Both the position numbers and the translations under genes were made by a program. DNA of 56,809 nucleotides from an uncultured Thermoleophilia bacterium. GTDB taxonomy: Bacteria > Actinomycetota > Thermoleophilia > Miltoncostaeales > Miltoncostaeaceae. The notes under the pieces are model-generated. The model ran no database searches, had not been told where the DNA came from, and saw only the letters and a program-made list of their open reading frames with translations. The stretch spans positions 1 through 56,809 of the forward strand of contig CALIKX010000032.1 of the NCBI GenBank assembly GCA_938017905.1. The letters are read 5' to 3'. Each line of letters starts with the position of its first letter. The stretch's first letter is position 1. This document shows, piece by piece, positions 22,151-40,792 of this stretch.

Positions 22151-23602
22151 TCATTCCGGCAGGCGCGTGATGACCAGCTTGGGGTAGGTCATCTCCATCA
22201 CCGCCGATGCCGGCCCCTCGCGGGCATCGCCCGAACCACGGATGCCGCCATAGGGCATCTGGTCGGCGCGGAAGGTGGGGGTCTCGTTGATGAGCACGCC
22301 CCCGAACGCGAGCCGGCGTGCCCACGCCATGGCGGCGTCCACGCGGGCCGTGAAGATTCCCGCCTGCAGGCCCAGCGGGCTGTCGTTCGCGATCGCGATG
22401 GCATCGTCCATGCGGTCGTACACACACACGGCGATGACCGGCCCGAACACCTCCTCGCGCATCACGCGGGTGAACGGCGCGACGCCGTCGAGCACCGTCG
22501 GGGCGAGCATGGCCGGGCCCGATGGCAGCCGGTCGCCGCCACGGACCACCCGTGCCCCCACCTGCGTGGCCTCGGCGATCCACTCCAGGATGCGATCGGC
22601 CGACGCGGAGTCGATGACCGGGCCGACGTCGGTGGCCTCCTCCAGCGGGTCGCCCGCCACGAGCCCGTCCACCAGCGGCAGCAGGGCGTCCATCAGCGCG
22701 TCATGCGCCTCGCGGTGCACGATCACGCGCTGCACCGAGATGCACGACTGCCCGGCATGGGTGAAGGCACTGCCCGCGATGGCCCGTGCCGCCGCATGCA
22801 CGTCTGCGTCGGAATGGACGATGACGGGCGTCGCGTTGCCGAGCTCGAGGGCCACCCGGATGCCGGGACGCGCCGCGCGGATGGACCAGCCCACCGTGCT
22901 GCTGCCGGTGAACGACACCATCGCCACGTCGGGGTGCGCCGTGAGGGGCTCGCCGGCCACGCGGTCACCCAGCACCCAGCCCAGCATCGCGGGGGGCAGC
23001 CCGCACTCGCGCAGGATCATCGCCAGGGCCAGGCCCGAGAGCGGCGTGCGCCCCGCGGGCTTCAGTACCACGGGGGCGCCTGCGGCGATCGCGGGACCGA
23101 GCTTGTGGGCCACAAGGTTGAGCGGGAAGTTGAACGGCGTGATGGCGGCGATGACCCCGATGGGCTCGCGCACCGTGGTGCCCACCAGCCCGACACCGGA
23201 GTCGGCGGCATCCATGGGGATCACCTCCCCCGCGAGGGTGCGGGTGACCGCCGCCGAGAAGGCCAGCGTGTCCACGCACCGCGCCACCTCGCCACGGGCC
23301 TGGCGGATGGGCTTGCCGGCCTCCGCCGCGATGAGCAGCGCGAGGTCCTCCGAGCACGCGGCCACGCGCGCCGAGGCCCGGTCGAGGATGCGCGCCCGCT
23401 CGGCAGCGTGCGGGGCGCTACCCAGGGCACCGCGCGCGACGGCCACCGCCATGTCCACGGCCTCCTCGCCGGAGACATCCACCCGTGCAACCTCGTCGCG
23501 GTCGTAGGGCGACAGCACCGGCTGGGTGCCGATGGCGGGCAGTACCTCATCCCCGGCCGTGGCGTGCAACGGAATCCAGTCGGGTACGGCGATGCGCGGC
23601 AT
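22151..23602 (-). CDS. Aldehyde dehydrogenase family protein
   Basis: 483-residue NAD(P)-dependent dehydrogenase that oxidises an aldehyde to an acid. The Rossmann-domain motif GSSTVGW, general-base Glu in LELGNATPV, catalytic Cys in AGQSCIS and EEVFGPV are visible, so it should be active. The substrate cannot be deduced; the sequence resembles the GapN/succinate-semialdehyde branch. Asn replaces the usual second Gly in ELGG. ATG 23602 coincides with the predicted transcript start from the TAGCCT hexamer at 23609-23614. Divergent from pdxH, with only 23 nt between the two start codons. Confidence 0.88.
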   Translation of the reverse strand: MPRIAVPDWIPLHATAGDEVLPAIGTQPVLSPYDRDEVARVDVSGEEAVDMAVAVARGALGSAPHAAERARILDRASARVAACSEDLALLIAAEAGKPIRQARGEVARCVDTLAFSAAVTRTLAGEVIPMDAADSGVGLVGTTVREPIGVIAAITPFNFPLNLVAHKLGPAIAAGAPVVLKPAGRTPLSGLALAMILRECGLPPAMLGWVLGDRVAGEPLTAHPDVAMVSFTGSSTVGWSIRAARPGIRVALELGNATPVIVHSDADVHAAARAIAGSAFTHAGQSCISVQRVIVHREAHDALMDALLPLVDGLVAGDPLEEATDVGPVIDSASADRILEWIAEATQVGARVVRGGDRLPSGPAMLAPTVLDGVAPFTRVMREEVFGPVIAVCVYDRMDDAIAIANDSPLGLQAGIFTARVDAAMAWARRLAFGGVLINETPTFRADQMPYGGIRGSGDAREGPASAVMEMTYPKLVITRLPE

Positions 23603-23608
23603 GGGCGC

Positions 23609-23618
23609 AGGCTACCGT
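23609..23618. promoter_or_regulatory. Overlapping divergent -10 pair (ALDH / pdxH)
   Basis: AGGCTACCGT reads TAGCCT on the minus strand (23614 to 23609) and TACCGT on the plus strand (23613 to 23618); the two share the TA at 23613-23614. Predicted starts fall on the ATG at 23602 (minus) and at 23625-23626 beside the ATG (plus), so both mRNAs would be leaderless. Confidence 0.55.
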
Positions 23619-23625
23619 GGTCGCC

Positions 23626-24222
23626 ATGGCGCCCCTGCTTCCCGAGGAGATCTCGCCCGATCCCCTGCGCGCGCTCTGCGCCTGGATCGATGAGGCCCGC
23701 GCCACGGGCCAGCCGCAGCCCCTCGCCATGACGCTCGCCACGGCCGGGCAGGACGGACGTCCCTCCGCGCGCATGGTGTTCGTGCGGCGATGGGGGCCGC
23801 GCGGTCTCGAGTGGATCACCGACGGACGCTCGCGCAAGGCACGCGAGGTGGCGGCCCGGGCGGATGCGGCCGGGGTCTTCTTCTGGGCCGGCATGGGACG
23901 CCAGGTACGGGTGGAGGGGCCCGTGCACCTGCTGCCCGATGACGAAGTGGCGGATCACATCGCGCGCCGCCGACCCCAGGCCCGGCGGGCGGCCCGGGCG
24001 TGGCGGCAGGGCGAGCCACTGCGCTCGCGCGGCGACCTGCACCGGCGCCTCGCCGCGGTGCCGCCCGATGAAGACCCCGGGGCCGTGCCACCGGGGTGGG
24101 TCGGGCACCGCCTGGAGCCCCGCGTGATCGAGTTCTGGCAGGAGGACCCCGACGGCCTGCACGACCGCATCCTCGCCACGCGCGTGGCCGCGGGCTGGGC
24201 GGTGGAACGACTCGCGCCATAG
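23626..24222 (+). CDS. pdxH: Pyridoxamine 5'-phosphate oxidase
   Basis: 198-residue FMN enzyme that makes pyridoxal 5'-phosphate from PNP or PMP. Signatures: FVRRWGPRGLEWITD, SRKAREV, FFWAGMGRQVRVEG, and the C-terminal EPRVIEFWQ...LHDRI that closes the active site. I set the start at ATG 23626 (longer upstream frames would run through the promoter and into the divergent gene). The product is a cofactor of HemL encoded elsewhere in the window. Single gene; its TAG stop precedes the riboswitch. Confidence 0.93.
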   Translation: MAPLLPEEISPDPLRALCAWIDEARATGQPQPLAMTLATAGQDGRPSARMVFVRRWGPRGLEWITDGRSRKAREVAARADAAGVFFWAGMGRQVRVEGPVHLLPDDEVADHIARRRPQARRAARAWRQGEPLRSRGDLHRRLAAVPPDEDPGAVPPGWVGHRLEPRVIEFWQEDPDGLHDRILATRVAAGWAVERLAP

Positions 24223-24453: not shown

Positions 24454-25917
24454 GTGACGGTGCGCGGGTACCCCGACGGGACCCCACATGAGGTGACCCC
24501 GCCCGGCGGCCCCGTGGTGGCCCGCGTGCGCGGGCTGCGATTCACCTACGGCGGCGCCCCGGCCGCCGCCCTGGACGGCGTGGACCTGGACGTCCACGCG
24601 GGCGAGGTGCTGGTGCTGGAGGGTCCCTCGGGCGGCGGCAAGAGCACGCTGCTGCGCTCGCTCGCCGGGCTCGTTCCCGACTTCCACGGCGGCATGCTGG
24701 GCGGCAGCGTCGAGGTGGCCGGCATGGATGCCCTTCGGCTGCCTCCCGCCGCGCTCGGCGGCGCCGTGGGCATGGTGTTCCAGGACCCCGAGGCGCAGGC
24801 GGTGCTGGGCACGGTGGAGCGCGACGTGGCATTCGGCCCGGCCAACGCCGGCATGCCGGTCACGGAGATCGCCCGGTGCGTGGACGGCGCCCTGCAGGCG
24901 GCCGGGGCATCGCACCTGCGTGATCGCCGCATCGAGGCGCTGTCCTCCGGCGAGCGGCAGCGCGTGGCCATCGCCGGGGTCCTGGCCCGTGGTCCGCGGC
25001 TGCTCCTGCTGGATGAGCCCACCTCGCAGCTGGACGCGCAGGCCGCGGCGGACCTGGCGCGCGCCCTTCGCGAACTGGCCGATGCGGGCACTGCCGTGGT
25101 CATCACCGAGCACCGCGCCGAGCGCGTGCGCCCCATCGCGGATCGCGTCCTGGCGGTGTGCTGCGGCCAGGTGGGGCCGGCCGAGCCGGACGAGGCCGCC
25201 GGGGAGCCGCCCGCGCCGTGCACCGCCGCGGCGCCGCCCGCAGCGCGCGCGGAGGGCATCATGGCGGGCCACGACGGGCGGCACGTGCTGCGCGGTGCGT
25301 CCGTGGCACTCGTACCCGGCCGCGTCACGGCGCTCACCGGACCCAACGGCAGCGGGAAGAGCACGCTCCTGCGCACCCTGGCGGGCCTGCACTGCCCCAC
25401 GGACGGGCGCGTGCTCCTGGGGGATGAGGATGTCTCCGCGCTGCCGCCGGAGTTGCGATTCCCCCGGCTCGGGATGGTGCCGCAGGATCCGGGCCGCCAT
25501 CTGCTCACCGAGCGCGTGGATGACGAGATCGCCGTGGCCCTGCGCGTGCAGGGCATCACCGGCAGCCTGCGCGATGCGCGCATCGCCGCGGTCGCGCACG
25601 ACCTGGACCTCGGCCACCTGCTGGACCGCCATCCCCTCGACCTCAGCGTGGGCGAGCGGGAGCGCGTGGCGCTCGCCGCGATCCTGGTGGCCGACCCCGC
25701 GGTGCTGGTGCTGGACGAGCCCACGCGCGGCATGGACCCGTCCCGCAAGAGGGCACTGGCCCACCTCATCCGGCGCCGGGCGGCAGAGGGCGCCGCGGTG
25801 CTGGTGGCCACCCACGACGGCCCCTTTGCCGTGGCCGCGGCCGACGAGGTGCTGGAGATGGTGAACGGGGACGCCGTGCCCACGGGCCTTCCGCCCACGT
25901 CCCTCCTGCACGCGTGA
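24454..25917 (+). CDS. ECF transporter duplicated ATPase (fused A-A' subunits)
   Basis: 487 residues holding two ABC ATPase domains in tandem. Domain 1 (about 20-235): Walker A GPSGGGKST, signature LSSGERQRV, Walker B LLLLDEPTS. Domain 2 (about 265-480): GPNGSGKST, LSVGERERV, VLVLDEPTR. Such fusions power energy-coupling-factor vitamin transporters. GTG 24454 is favoured (GAGGA 5 nt upstream), with GTG 24460 as alternative; the frame extends upstream through the riboswitch only by chance. Because the riboswitch precedes it, uptake of cobalamin is the likely job. GTGA overlap with the S-component gene. Confidence 0.9.
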   Translation: MTVRGYPDGTPHEVTPPGGPVVARVRGLRFTYGGAPAAALDGVDLDVHAGEVLVLEGPSGGGKSTLLRSLAGLVPDFHGGMLGGSVEVAGMDALRLPPAALGGAVGMVFQDPEAQAVLGTVERDVAFGPANAGMPVTEIARCVDGALQAAGASHLRDRRIEALSSGERQRVAIAGVLARGPRLLLLDEPTSQLDAQAAADLARALRELADAGTAVVITEHRAERVRPIADRVLAVCCGQVGPAEPDEAAGEPPAPCTAAAPPAARAEGIMAGHDGRHVLRGASVALVPGRVTALTGPNGSGKSTLLRTLAGLHCPTDGRVLLGDEDVSALPPELRFPRLGMVPQDPGRHLLTERVDDEIAVALRVQGITGSLRDARIAAVAHDLDLGHLLDRHPLDLSVGERERVALAAILVADPAVLVLDEPTRGMDPSRKRALAHLIRRRAAEGAAVLVATHDGPFAVAAADEVLEMVNGDAVPTGLPPTSLLHA

Positions 25918-37817: not shown

Positions 37818-39166
37818 GGGCCCTGCGCGCGGGTTCGCTGCTGATGCGCAAGGACCTGCGCGTGCTGCTGCGAAGCCGCGCGCTGCTCGCCGTTCTGATC
37901 GGCTACCCGGTGGTCATCGCCATCCTCCTGGCCATCGCGCTGTCGGGGGGCGACCGGCGGCCCACGGTGGCATTCGTCAACCTCGACGCGGCCTCGGGCC
38001 GCACGGTGCAGGTGGGTGATGAGCGCCTGTCGATCGAGGACTACGCGACGCGCCTGGAGGACGACGTGGACCTCGTGCGGCTCGACCCCGCGCAGGCCGA
38101 GGAGGCCCTCGCCGATGGCCGCGTGAGCGCCGTGCTCACCGTGCCGCGGGGGTTCATCGCCGATCTCCAGTCGGGGCTGAAGCCCCCCGTGCTGCAGCTG
38201 GCCACCAACCCACGCTCACCCATCGAGGCGCAGGCCATTGAGCGGAATCTGGAATCGGCGGTCTTCCGCCTGAACCAGGCGCTGGCGTCGGCCTACGTGG
38301 CGCAGGTGCTGAACCTGGTGGACCTGATCCAGGACGGCGGAACCGTGGGCATCTTCGGGCGTGCCGGCACGCTGCTGGGCCTCGCGCAGAGCGACCGCGT
38401 GCTGCGCCAGGTGCAGGCCCAGTTGCGCGCCGACGGGCGCGGCGGGCTGGCCGACCGGCTCGATCCGCTGCGCGACTACATCACGGGCGTCGGTGACAAC
38501 CTTGAGCTCGCGAAGCCCGCGGCCCAGGCCATCGCGAGCCCCATCCGGCTGGACATCCGCGAGGGCGCACCGGGCCGGGAGCCGCTCAGCGCCCTGGGAA
38601 TCGCGGGCGCCCTCGTCGTGGGCATCGGGCTCGTGGGGGTGCTGCTGGCGGCCGCCCTGCTGTCCGCCGAGCGCGAGGACCGGGTGCTGTCACGGCTCGG
38701 GCGCGGCCTCGTGGGGCCGGGCACGATCATCGCGCAGAAGGCGCTGCTCGCGGCCGTTGCCTGCACCGCGGTGGGCTACGTGCTGCTCGGGGTGGTGGCG
38801 CTCACGACATCGGTGGCGGTGGGACGCTGGCTGCTGTGGCTGCCCGCCCTCCTGCTCGCGGGCCTCGCCTCCGGGGCCTTCGGGCTGCTGGTGGGGGCGC
38901 TCGCCCGCGAGACCCGCACGGCGCTCCTCGCCGGCCTCATGATCGCCCTGCCGCTCGCGGTCATCGCGCTCATCCCCGGTAACGACATCGCCTACTGGGC
39001 CAGCGCCCTCGCCGGGTTCGGCCCGGCCGCACGCACCTTCCAGGGGCTGCTGGTGGACCCCGAAGTGGCGTCGTCCACCTACGCCGGCATGGGCATCCTG
39101 GCGGTGGTGGCACTGGTGTATGGGGTGGCGGCGCGCGTGGCGCTGGGCCGCCGCATGCACTCCTAG
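37814..39166 (+). CDS. ABC-2 type permease
   Basis: 450 residues. One N-terminal helix (about 22-43), a large extracytoplasmic domain of about 230 residues (including FVNLDAASGRTVQVGDERLS), then five helices in the C-terminal half with alternating Leu/Ala/Val stretches. This is the YhgE/ABC2_membrane_3 layout for exporters of lipids, drugs or polymers. ATG 37814 overlaps the ATPase stop by 4 bp. It meets the aat gene tail to tail with a 4-bp overlap. Confidence 0.83.
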   Translation: MRALRAGSLLMRKDLRVLLRSRALLAVLIGYPVVIAILLAIALSGGDRRPTVAFVNLDAASGRTVQVGDERLSIEDYATRLEDDVDLVRLDPAQAEEALADGRVSAVLTVPRGFIADLQSGLKPPVLQLATNPRSPIEAQAIERNLESAVFRLNQALASAYVAQVLNLVDLIQDGGTVGIFGRAGTLLGLAQSDRVLRQVQAQLRADGRGGLADRLDPLRDYITGVGDNLELAKPAAQAIASPIRLDIREGAPGREPLSALGIAGALVVGIGLVGVLLAAALLSAEREDRVLSRLGRGLVGPGTIIAQKALLAAVACTAVGYVLLGVVALTTSVAVGRWLLWLPALLLAGLASGAFGLLVGALARETRTALLAGLMIALPLAVIALIPGNDIAYWASALAGFGPAARTFQGLLVDPEVASSTYAGMGILAVVALVYGVAARVALGRRMHS

Positions 39167-39744
39167 CCCTCCGCCCCGGAAAGGGCCCGGGCCAGCAGAC
39201 GCAGGTAATCCGCATGCGGCACCTCGCGGGCACCGAAGCGCTCCACGTGCGGTGATGCCACCTGCACGTCGATCACGACCGTGCCCATGTCCCGCGCGAG
39301 GGAGATGAGCCCGGCGAGGGCCGCGTTGCCGCCATCGGGGCGGTGATGGAACATGCTCTCCGCGGTCATGGCGCGGCCGATCCACACCCCGAACAGCCCC
39401 CCGGCCAGCACGTCGCCGTCCCAGGCCTCCACGCTGTGCGCCACTCCCGCGCGGTGGAGCGCCTCATACGCGGCCGCCAGGCGCGGCGTCAGCCACATGC
39501 CATCCCGATCCCCGCCGCAGGCCGACACCACGCGGGGAAACGCGGTGTCCACGCGCACGTGATACCCGCGCCGGCGGAGCATGCGGCGGACGGTCGTGGG
39601 CACGCGCGCCTCGGACGGCAGGATCACCGCGCGCGGGTCGGCCAGGTACCACCCCACCGGCCCCGTGGCCCCGGCCTCATCCATCGGGAACAGGCCCTGC
39701 AGGTACCCCTGCACCATCTCGGTGGGGTTCGGCCCTTCCGCCAC
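39163..39744 (-). CDS. aat: Leucyl/phenylalanyl-tRNA-protein transferase
   Basis: 193-residue enzyme that adds Leu or Phe to proteins with N-terminal Arg or Lys, marking them for ClpS/ClpAP. The family signatures YLQGLFPM, GWYLADPRAVI, GDRDGMWLTP, AHSVEAWDGDVLAGGLFGV and GRAMTAESMFH are all readable. It is somewhat shorter than the 230-residue E. coli protein, mainly at the N-terminus. GTG 39744 is predicted to lie 1 nt downstream of the transcript start from TATCGT. Divergent from hemB with 22 nt between start codons. Confidence 0.93.
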   Translation of the reverse strand: MAEGPNPTEMVQGYLQGLFPMDEAGATGPVGWYLADPRAVILPSEARVPTTVRRMLRRRGYHVRVDTAFPRVVSACGGDRDGMWLTPRLAAAYEALHRAGVAHSVEAWDGDVLAGGLFGVWIGRAMTAESMFHHRPDGGNAALAGLISLARDMGTVVIDVQVASPHVERFGAREVPHADYLRLLARALSGAEG

Positions 39745-39751
39745 GCGGGCG

Positions 39752-39761
39752 ACGATACACT
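39752..39761. promoter_or_regulatory. Overlapping divergent -10 pair (aat / hemB)
   Basis: ACGATACACT reads TATCGT on the minus strand (39757 to 39752) and TACACT on the plus strand (39756 to 39761); both use the TA at 39756-39757. Predicted starts are within 2 nt of the aat GTG (39744) and the hemB GTG codons (39767 and 39770). Confidence 0.55.
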
Positions 39762-39766
39762 CGCCC

Positions 39767-40792
39767 GTGGTGCAGGTTCACGCCACACACGCGCACGCGG
39801 GCACCGGGGCATTCCCGGCAGTCCGCCACCGCAGGCTCCGCCGCACGGAGGGCATCCGCCGCATGGTGCGCGAGGCCGTGCCGCGGCCCGAGCAACTGGT
39901 GCTGCCCATGTTCGCCGTGGAGGGCACCGGCGTCCGGCAGCCCGTTGACGCACTGCCCGGTGTCGCGCGCATGTCACCCGACCTGCTGGCCGACGCGGCC
40001 CGCGCCGCGCACAGTGCCGGCATCGGTGGAGTGCTGCTCTTCGGCGTGAGCGACCGCAAGGACGCGCAGGCGGCGGCGGCCCATGCCGCCGACGGGCCCG
40101 TGCAGCAGGCCGTGCGGGCGATCAAGGCGGCCGCCACGGATCTCGTGGTGATCACCGACGTCTGCCTGTGTGCCTACACTCACCACGGGCACTGCGGCCT
40201 GCTGGACGACCGCGGCGAGGTGGCGAACGACCCCTCGCTCGACGTGCTGGTCCGCGTGGCGGTGAGCCATGCCGACGCCGGCGCCGACGTGGTGGCGCCG
40301 AGCGACATGATGGATGGCCGGGTAGGTGCCATCCGCGCGGGTCTCGATGCTGCGGGGCACGAGGGCACGGCGATCATGGCCTACTCCGCGAAGTACGCGT
40401 CGGCGTTCTACGGGCCGTTCCGCGAGGCCGCGGGCTCGGCCCCCGGGCACGGCGACCGGCGTGGGTACCAGATGGACCCCGCCAACGGCCGCGAGGCGGT
40501 GCGCGAGGTACTTCAGGATGTGGCCGAGGGCGCCGACATGGTGATGGTGAAGCCCGCGGCCACCTACCTGGACGTCATCCGCGACGTCCGGGGTGCCACC
40601 GACCTCCCGCTCGCCGCGTACCACGTGAGCGGCGAGTACTCGATGATCAAGGCCGCGGCCGGGCACGGGTGGCTCGACGAGCGCCAGGCCATGCTCGAGA
40701 CCATCACCGCCATCCGCCGCGCAGGGGCGGACATCATCATCACCTACGCGGCAGTGGACGCCGCGGGGTGGCTACGCGAGGAGCAGCCATGA
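39767..40792 (+). CDS. hemB: Porphobilinogen synthase (delta-aminolevulinate dehydratase)
   Basis: 341 residues; condenses two 5-aminolevulinate molecules to porphobilinogen in tetrapyrrole synthesis. The zinc site Cys triad DVCLCAYTHHGHCG is present, so it is a Zn-dependent form; Schiff-base lysines are in MAYSAKYAS and VKPAATYLD. GTG 39767 (or 39770) is chosen from the promoter hexamer; the frame open further upstream overlaps aat and is not used. First gene of a heme block: ATGA overlap with the siroheme decarboxylase-like gene. Confidence 0.95.
   Translation: MVQVHATHAHAGTGAFPAVRHRRLRRTEGIRRMVREAVPRPEQLVLPMFAVEGTGVRQPVDALPGVARMSPDLLADAARAAHSAGIGGVLLFGVSDRKDAQAAAAHAADGPVQQAVRAIKAAATDLVVITDVCLCAYTHHGHCGLLDDRGEVANDPSLDVLVRVAVSHADAGADVVAPSDMMDGRVGAIRAGLDAAGHEGTAIMAYSAKYASAFYGPFREAAGSAPGHGDRRGYQMDPANGREAVREVLQDVAEGADMVMVKPAATYLDVIRDVRGATDLPLAAYHVSGEYSMIKAAAGHGWLDERQAMLETITAIRRAGADIIITYAAVDAAGWLREEQP

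Follow-up and report, generated by a model that had tools for sequence, protein, structure and literature searches.

Can ten base pairs serve as the promoter of two divergent genes, and what would keep such an element in place? The question is raised by an aldehyde dehydrogenase gene (ALDH) and a pdxH-like gene that lie back to back in the stretch of DNA analysed here (56,809 nt; hereafter the window), contig C32 in a MAG totalling 1.54 Mb. The closest public relatives of this genome carry mixed MAG labels, Miltoncostaeales and Thermoleophilia among them. The start codons of the two genes (CAT at 23600–23602 for ALDH, minus strand; ATG at 23626–23628 for pdxH, plus strand) are separated by 23 nt (23603–23625). 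A sequence-only reading had described a decamer in this gap with opposed hexamers, TAGCCT and TACCGT, that share a TA, and the sequence is as it described. The features are collected in Table 1.

Table 1. Genes and predicted promoter elements at the two shared-box loci of the window.
Feature	Position	Strand	Basis and remarks
Aldehyde dehydrogenase gene (ALDH)	22151–23602	minus	ORF; PF00171, E 3e-135; ATG at 23602, start conserved in relatives
pdxH-like gene (pyridoxamine 5′-phosphate oxidase family)	23626–24222	plus	PF01243, PF10590, NF004231; ATG 23626 conserved in ten relatives
Shared decamer AGGCTACCGT, opposed TANNNT boxes overlapping by TA	23609–23618		Sequence; invariant in ten relatives
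ALDH −10 box TAGCCT, predicted	23609–23614	minus	Commonest leaderless box in the genome; TANNNT kept in three pdxH-less relatives
pdxH −10 box TACCGT, predicted	23613–23618	plus	Final T gone with pdxH loss (3) or moved pdxH start (4)
Second shared decamer ACGATACACT, aat/hemB	39752–39761		Sequence; invariant in 19/19 genus genomes
aat, leucyl/phenylalanyl-tRNA-protein transferase	39163–39744	minus	TIGR00667 above cut-off; GTG start 7 nt from box TATCGT
hemB, porphobilinogen synthase	39770–40792	plus	NF006762 above cut-off; GTG start 8 nt from box TACACT

TAGCCT ends 6 nt from the ALDH ATG and TACCGT 7 nt from the pdxH ATG, and the TA at 23613–23614 is common to both hexamers. By profile match the plus-strand gene belongs to the PNPOx family, scoring above the cut-off of NF004231 and below that of TIGR00558 (pdxH). 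An in-frame GTG at 23617 would be a possible pdxH start in this genome; it reads GTT in six relatives, and ATG 23626 is therefore the conserved start. The ALDH frame is closed by the TAG of its box, a stop three codons before the ATG, which leaves no room for a start further upstream. No Shine-Dalgarno sequence was found 4–14 nt before either start, and a −35 element was rejected in both directions, the best match to TTGACA being 2/6 on each side. ANNNTANNNT would arise at one fixed place by chance with p about 5e-4 at 70% GC, and this genome has a single match to the strict ATG/ATG pattern. We confirmed that a decamer with two opposed boxes between ALDH and pdxH is more than chance. Downstream of pdxH, a cobalamin riboswitch (RF00174, 24237–24437) separates it from an ATP-binding transporter gene starting near 24454.

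Our interpretation is that AGGCTACCGT is probably a bidirectional core promoter, in which two −35-less actinobacterial TANNNT −10 elements overlap by TA and from which two leaderless mRNAs are predicted. RNA polymerase, presumably with the housekeeping sigma factor, could bind the decamer facing either way and open the DNA at the one shared TA; transcription would begin about 7 nt beyond the box in use, on the A of the ALDH ATG in one direction and on the pdxH ATG or one base before it in the other. Only one polymerase would be able to occupy the shared site at a time. With starts on or beside both ATGs, both mRNAs would be leaderless, and the 23 bp would be the promoter and the entire intergenic region at once.

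Leaderless starts across the genome

TANNNT is a loose motif, and its weight depends on how it is distributed over the genome. With genes called by a self-trained codon model over 0.95 Mb (~62%) of the genome, 161 of 892 called starts (18%) are preceded by TANNNT at 6–9 nt, while internal ATGs carry it at only 0–0.15% per spacing; leaderless starts are therefore normal here. The spacers of 6 and 7 nt at ALDH/pdxH fall on the genome-wide peak of TANNNT-to-start spacing, and in the ranking of boxes among leaderless starts TAGCCT comes first (23) and TACCGT fifth (9). A C stands directly before the start codon in 115 of the 161 TANNNT-preceded genes. No −35 signal was found genome-wide, most boxes matching TTGACA at 2–3 of 6 positions.

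Actinobacteria are described as having TANNNT without a −35 consensus and about a fifth of their genes leaderless (PMC3898074, PMC3160421). The transcript 5′ end of actinobacterial leaderless genes lies within ~5 nt of the start codon, and the features by which such genes are recognized, TANNNT ~12 bp before the start codon and no Shine-Dalgarno sequence, are both found at ALDH/pdxH. In Mycobacterium tuberculosis a preference for [G/C][A/G]N at −15 to −13 is reported (PMC3898074). Such a triplet precedes 89 of the 161 boxes in the present genome, and the triplets at ALDH/pdxH, GGC and CGG, fit the same preference. The inner bases of each hexamer double as the −15 to −13 triplet of the opposite promoter, an overlap that could account for the invariance of the whole decamer.

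Recurrence and spacing of shared boxes

The sequence-only reading had presented divergent leaderless mRNAs from a shared −10 as novel. This was too strong: a 23-bp class of bidirectional promoters has been described, and the leaderless form recurs in the window and in many related genomes. A unique status for ALDH/pdxH within its own genome was likewise rejected, as aat/hemB and an rRNA methyltransferase-like/heliorhodopsin pair share its layout. The aat/hemB region (window 39742–39772) has GTG starts on both sides, with GTG 39767 as an alternative hemB start; in most relatives the start lies 7–8 nt from the box. In each of the 19 genus genomes readable at this locus aat is adjacent, and most flanking positions are variable. 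ANNNTANNNT is all that the aat/hemB and ALDH/pdxH decamers have in common. The third shared decamer, ACGATAGGGT, is found on contig C34 (L078, 5110–5200). It is flanked by an rRNA methyltransferase-like gene, which was identified by eye, and a heliorhodopsin gene (NF038020), with GTG/ATG starts and a gap of 23. Here the box is shared in G000, G005 and G012, while in several relatives the two boxes are apart. Some genus relatives have a different neighbourhood of the same gene, and in four a tRNA end lies just upstream. Contig C79 (L123, 1480–1530) holds a possible leaderless pair of 18-bp geometry, CTACAGTA, with GTG/GTG starts and a gap of 19. A candidate at L068 (gap 25), whose starts are doubtful, was left out of the counts.

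We counted the pattern CATN{6,7}ANNNTANNNTN{6,7}ATG in 249 genomes, with AT-centred and reversed patterns as controls and with family sums added by hand. Matches numbered 21 in family f8 (10 genomes; 2 AT-centred, 0 reversed), 77 in f7 (47 genomes; 24 and 6) and 73 in f3 (61 genomes; 16 and 4), and at 20 of 26 sites checked in these three families ORFs of at least 50 codons lie on both sides. Within the genus itself, ALDH/pdxH orthologs aside, the strict ATG/ATG pattern showed no excess (8 vs 7). In f6, which has lower GC, the AT-centred control exceeds the pattern count, and the matches look mostly like chance, as most are without ORFs on both sides. Across the wider phylum the pattern is above the reversed control in several families and not in others.

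The distance between starts is sharply distributed. In the 57 related-family genomes of f7 and f8, the shared-box geometry, with a start distance of 23, occurs 98 times against controls of 6 and 26, which are this low even though its pattern has two fewer fixed letters than that for separate boxes. Pairs of boxes that do not overlap (ANNNTA-N{k}-TANNNT) and have leaderless spacing were found at 106 places. The search needs one spacer to be 6 nt long; pairs in which both are 7 nt escape it, an estimated ~15% by the spacer ratio among the called starts. Only 4 of the 106 have k of 0–4 (start distance 25–29), and for k of 5–20 (start distance 30–45) there are 3–10 at every value. The leaderless 18-bp geometry was found 30 times vs the 98 of the 23-bp geometry, with 6 reversed-control matches each.

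These distances bear on an alternative that has real, if lesser, probability: that the box overlap has no function of its own and is an end point of compaction, the two genes merely tolerating each other. The genome is indeed compact, with ~92% in called genes; the fate of each half follows that of the gene it serves, as described below; and at the heliorhodopsin locus a box shared in some genus members is replaced by separate boxes in others. Plain compaction, however, would leave no gap such as the one seen here, with 98 pairs at distance 23, 4 in all at 25–29 and 3–10 at each distance of 30–45. On mechanism this alternative is compatible with the bidirectional core promoter that we favour; on the selective reason it is not. 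We tentatively suggest, in what is close to a balanced judgement, that leaderless shared-box promoters may be a distinct way of arranging gene pairs that is under selection in high-GC Actinomycetota. In such an architecture a 10-bp element without −35, UTR or ribosome site would drive two genes, the 23-bp geometry would be favoured at the expense of 18 bp and of spacings a little wider than 23, and imposed mutual exclusion would couple the genes. Recurrence together with the sharp spacing preference suggests that these promoters form a class which can be counted in compact genomes of high GC.

Conservation of the decamer and decay of its pdxH half

pdxH was found in 14 genus genomes, with an opposed ALDH start just upstream in each; in one of them, G012, the contig ends within the ALDH part. 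In all ten genomes with a start gap of 23–24 nt the decamer is invariant, whereas its flanks vary, with 3 of 13 columns invariant (Fisher p = 4e-4, kinship ignored). In the other four, whose pdxH is 63–66% identical, the pdxH start lies ~16–20 nt further downstream; the minus box AGGCTA is kept and the plus hexamer now reads TACCCC. These genomes have a GAATAT or GAATAG box, without the first T of TANNNT, 6–8 nt before the new pdxH start, and one of them (L013) has GGAGG before the pdxH ATG. The ALDH box is kept in every genome read. By its own account, the sequence-only reading would be contradicted by close relatives in which the gene order persists and the decamer does not. The closer clade has no such case; the four distant genomes do lack the plus half, but their pdxH start has moved too.

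Box positions, spacing and conservation being established by this comparison, three further members of the genus (G014, G008 and G007), with ALDH present and no detectable pdxH, show that the pdxH half decays independently. The sequence upstream of ALDH is AGGCTACCGC in G014 and G008 and AGGGTACCGG in G007: the minus TANNNT at 6 nt is present in 3/3, and the T needed by pdxH alone is lost in 3/3. The plus-half T is thus found in 10/10 genomes at the standard spacing vs 0/7 elsewhere (p = 5e-5, uncorrected for kinship). A cobalamin riboswitch still lies ~100 bp (G014) and ~290 bp (G007) upstream of ALDH, and pdxH was therefore removed in place rather than missed in an assembly gap; G008 (72% complete) has a different neighbour upstream of ALDH. 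The ALDH tree, which is poorly resolved, groups G014 and G008 with the closer clade and leaves G007 out of it, and since there is little resolution within that clade, two or three pdxH losses are possible. The genomes compared are not independent, and the losses may be only two events.

The invariant decamer and the loss of the pdxH half support two overlapping −10 elements, each retained by its own gene. The recurrence of this geometry at aat/hemB, its enrichment in related families and the lack of −35 and Shine-Dalgarno sequences speak for the same reading; the looseness of TANNNT, the kinship of the genomes and the missing excess of the strict pattern in the genus beyond the orthologs weigh against it. 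Together with the genome-wide signature they give good comparative support to the earlier proposal of two overlapping −10 boxes, the two leaderless mRNAs standing as a prediction. The element would be a minimal two-gene promoter with evolutionarily separable halves, in which gene loss erases just the base serving that gene. It is improbable that the decamer promotes ALDH only, with a plus TANNNT that arose by chance and a leadered pdxH transcript that begins within ALDH or at another place. Persistence of the box before ALDH in every genome would fit such an arrangement, as would the four distant members, which have pdxH without the plus half and so make other expression possible. Nonetheless, the plus T accompanies pdxH wherever the gap is 23–24 nt and is gone wherever pdxH is, the plus box sits at the preferred leaderless spacing, and pdxH has no Shine-Dalgarno sequence. 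A regulator binding site for both genes in place of two −10 boxes is highly improbable: very high conservation between divergent genes would suit one, but the decamer is non-palindromic apart from the promoter positions, aat/hemB has just ANNNTANNNT in common with it, and pdxH loss erases one base and not the site.

Relation to known leaderless and bidirectional promoters

The bidirectional core promoter proposed here resembles actinobacterial leaderless promoters (PMC3898074, PMC3160421) in having TANNNT ~12 bp upstream and no −35, in a genome where about a fifth of genes have this form. In M. tuberculosis divergent promoters can lie very close to each other, and neither gene of prpD/Rv1129c has a leader (PMC3898074). 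A leaderless pair sharing the TA of both boxes, as predicted at ALDH/pdxH, is not described in the accessible parts of these two papers, and a search of open full text, partial in coverage so that priority is uncertain, did not turn up an earlier account of leaderless gene pairs in bacteria with a shared −10 box.

Bidirectional promoters of prokaryotes were described by Warman, Grainger and colleagues (PMC12825309, PMC10268837), with divergent starts 7–25 bp apart; 18 bp is the commonest distance, and 10 and 23 are also common (PMC12825309). In Escherichia coli such promoters show little polymerase competition at basal activity, and competition appears once one side is activated (PMC12825309). 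Given how small basal competition is there, competition between ALDH and pdxH is possible but unsupported here. As the locus has neither a −35 nor a ribosome site, and its transcripts would have no leader, the −10 element would by itself be the whole control region, so that polymerase competition should be testable in a simple form.

As in the 23-bp class, the key −10 positions of the opposed promoters at ALDH/pdxH fall on the same base pairs (the TA in ANNNTANNNT), and the box geometry predicts starts 23 bp apart. Short DNA is sufficient for both directions in that class, and the same is predicted for ALDH/pdxH. In contrast to the class, both mRNAs are predicted to be leaderless with no −35 on either side, and the proposed promoter takes up all the space between the genes, an element conserved with gene-specific decay. 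Being leaderless on both sides, lacking a −35 and filling the intergenic region, the ALDH/pdxH element would be a variant of the 23-bp bidirectional promoters.
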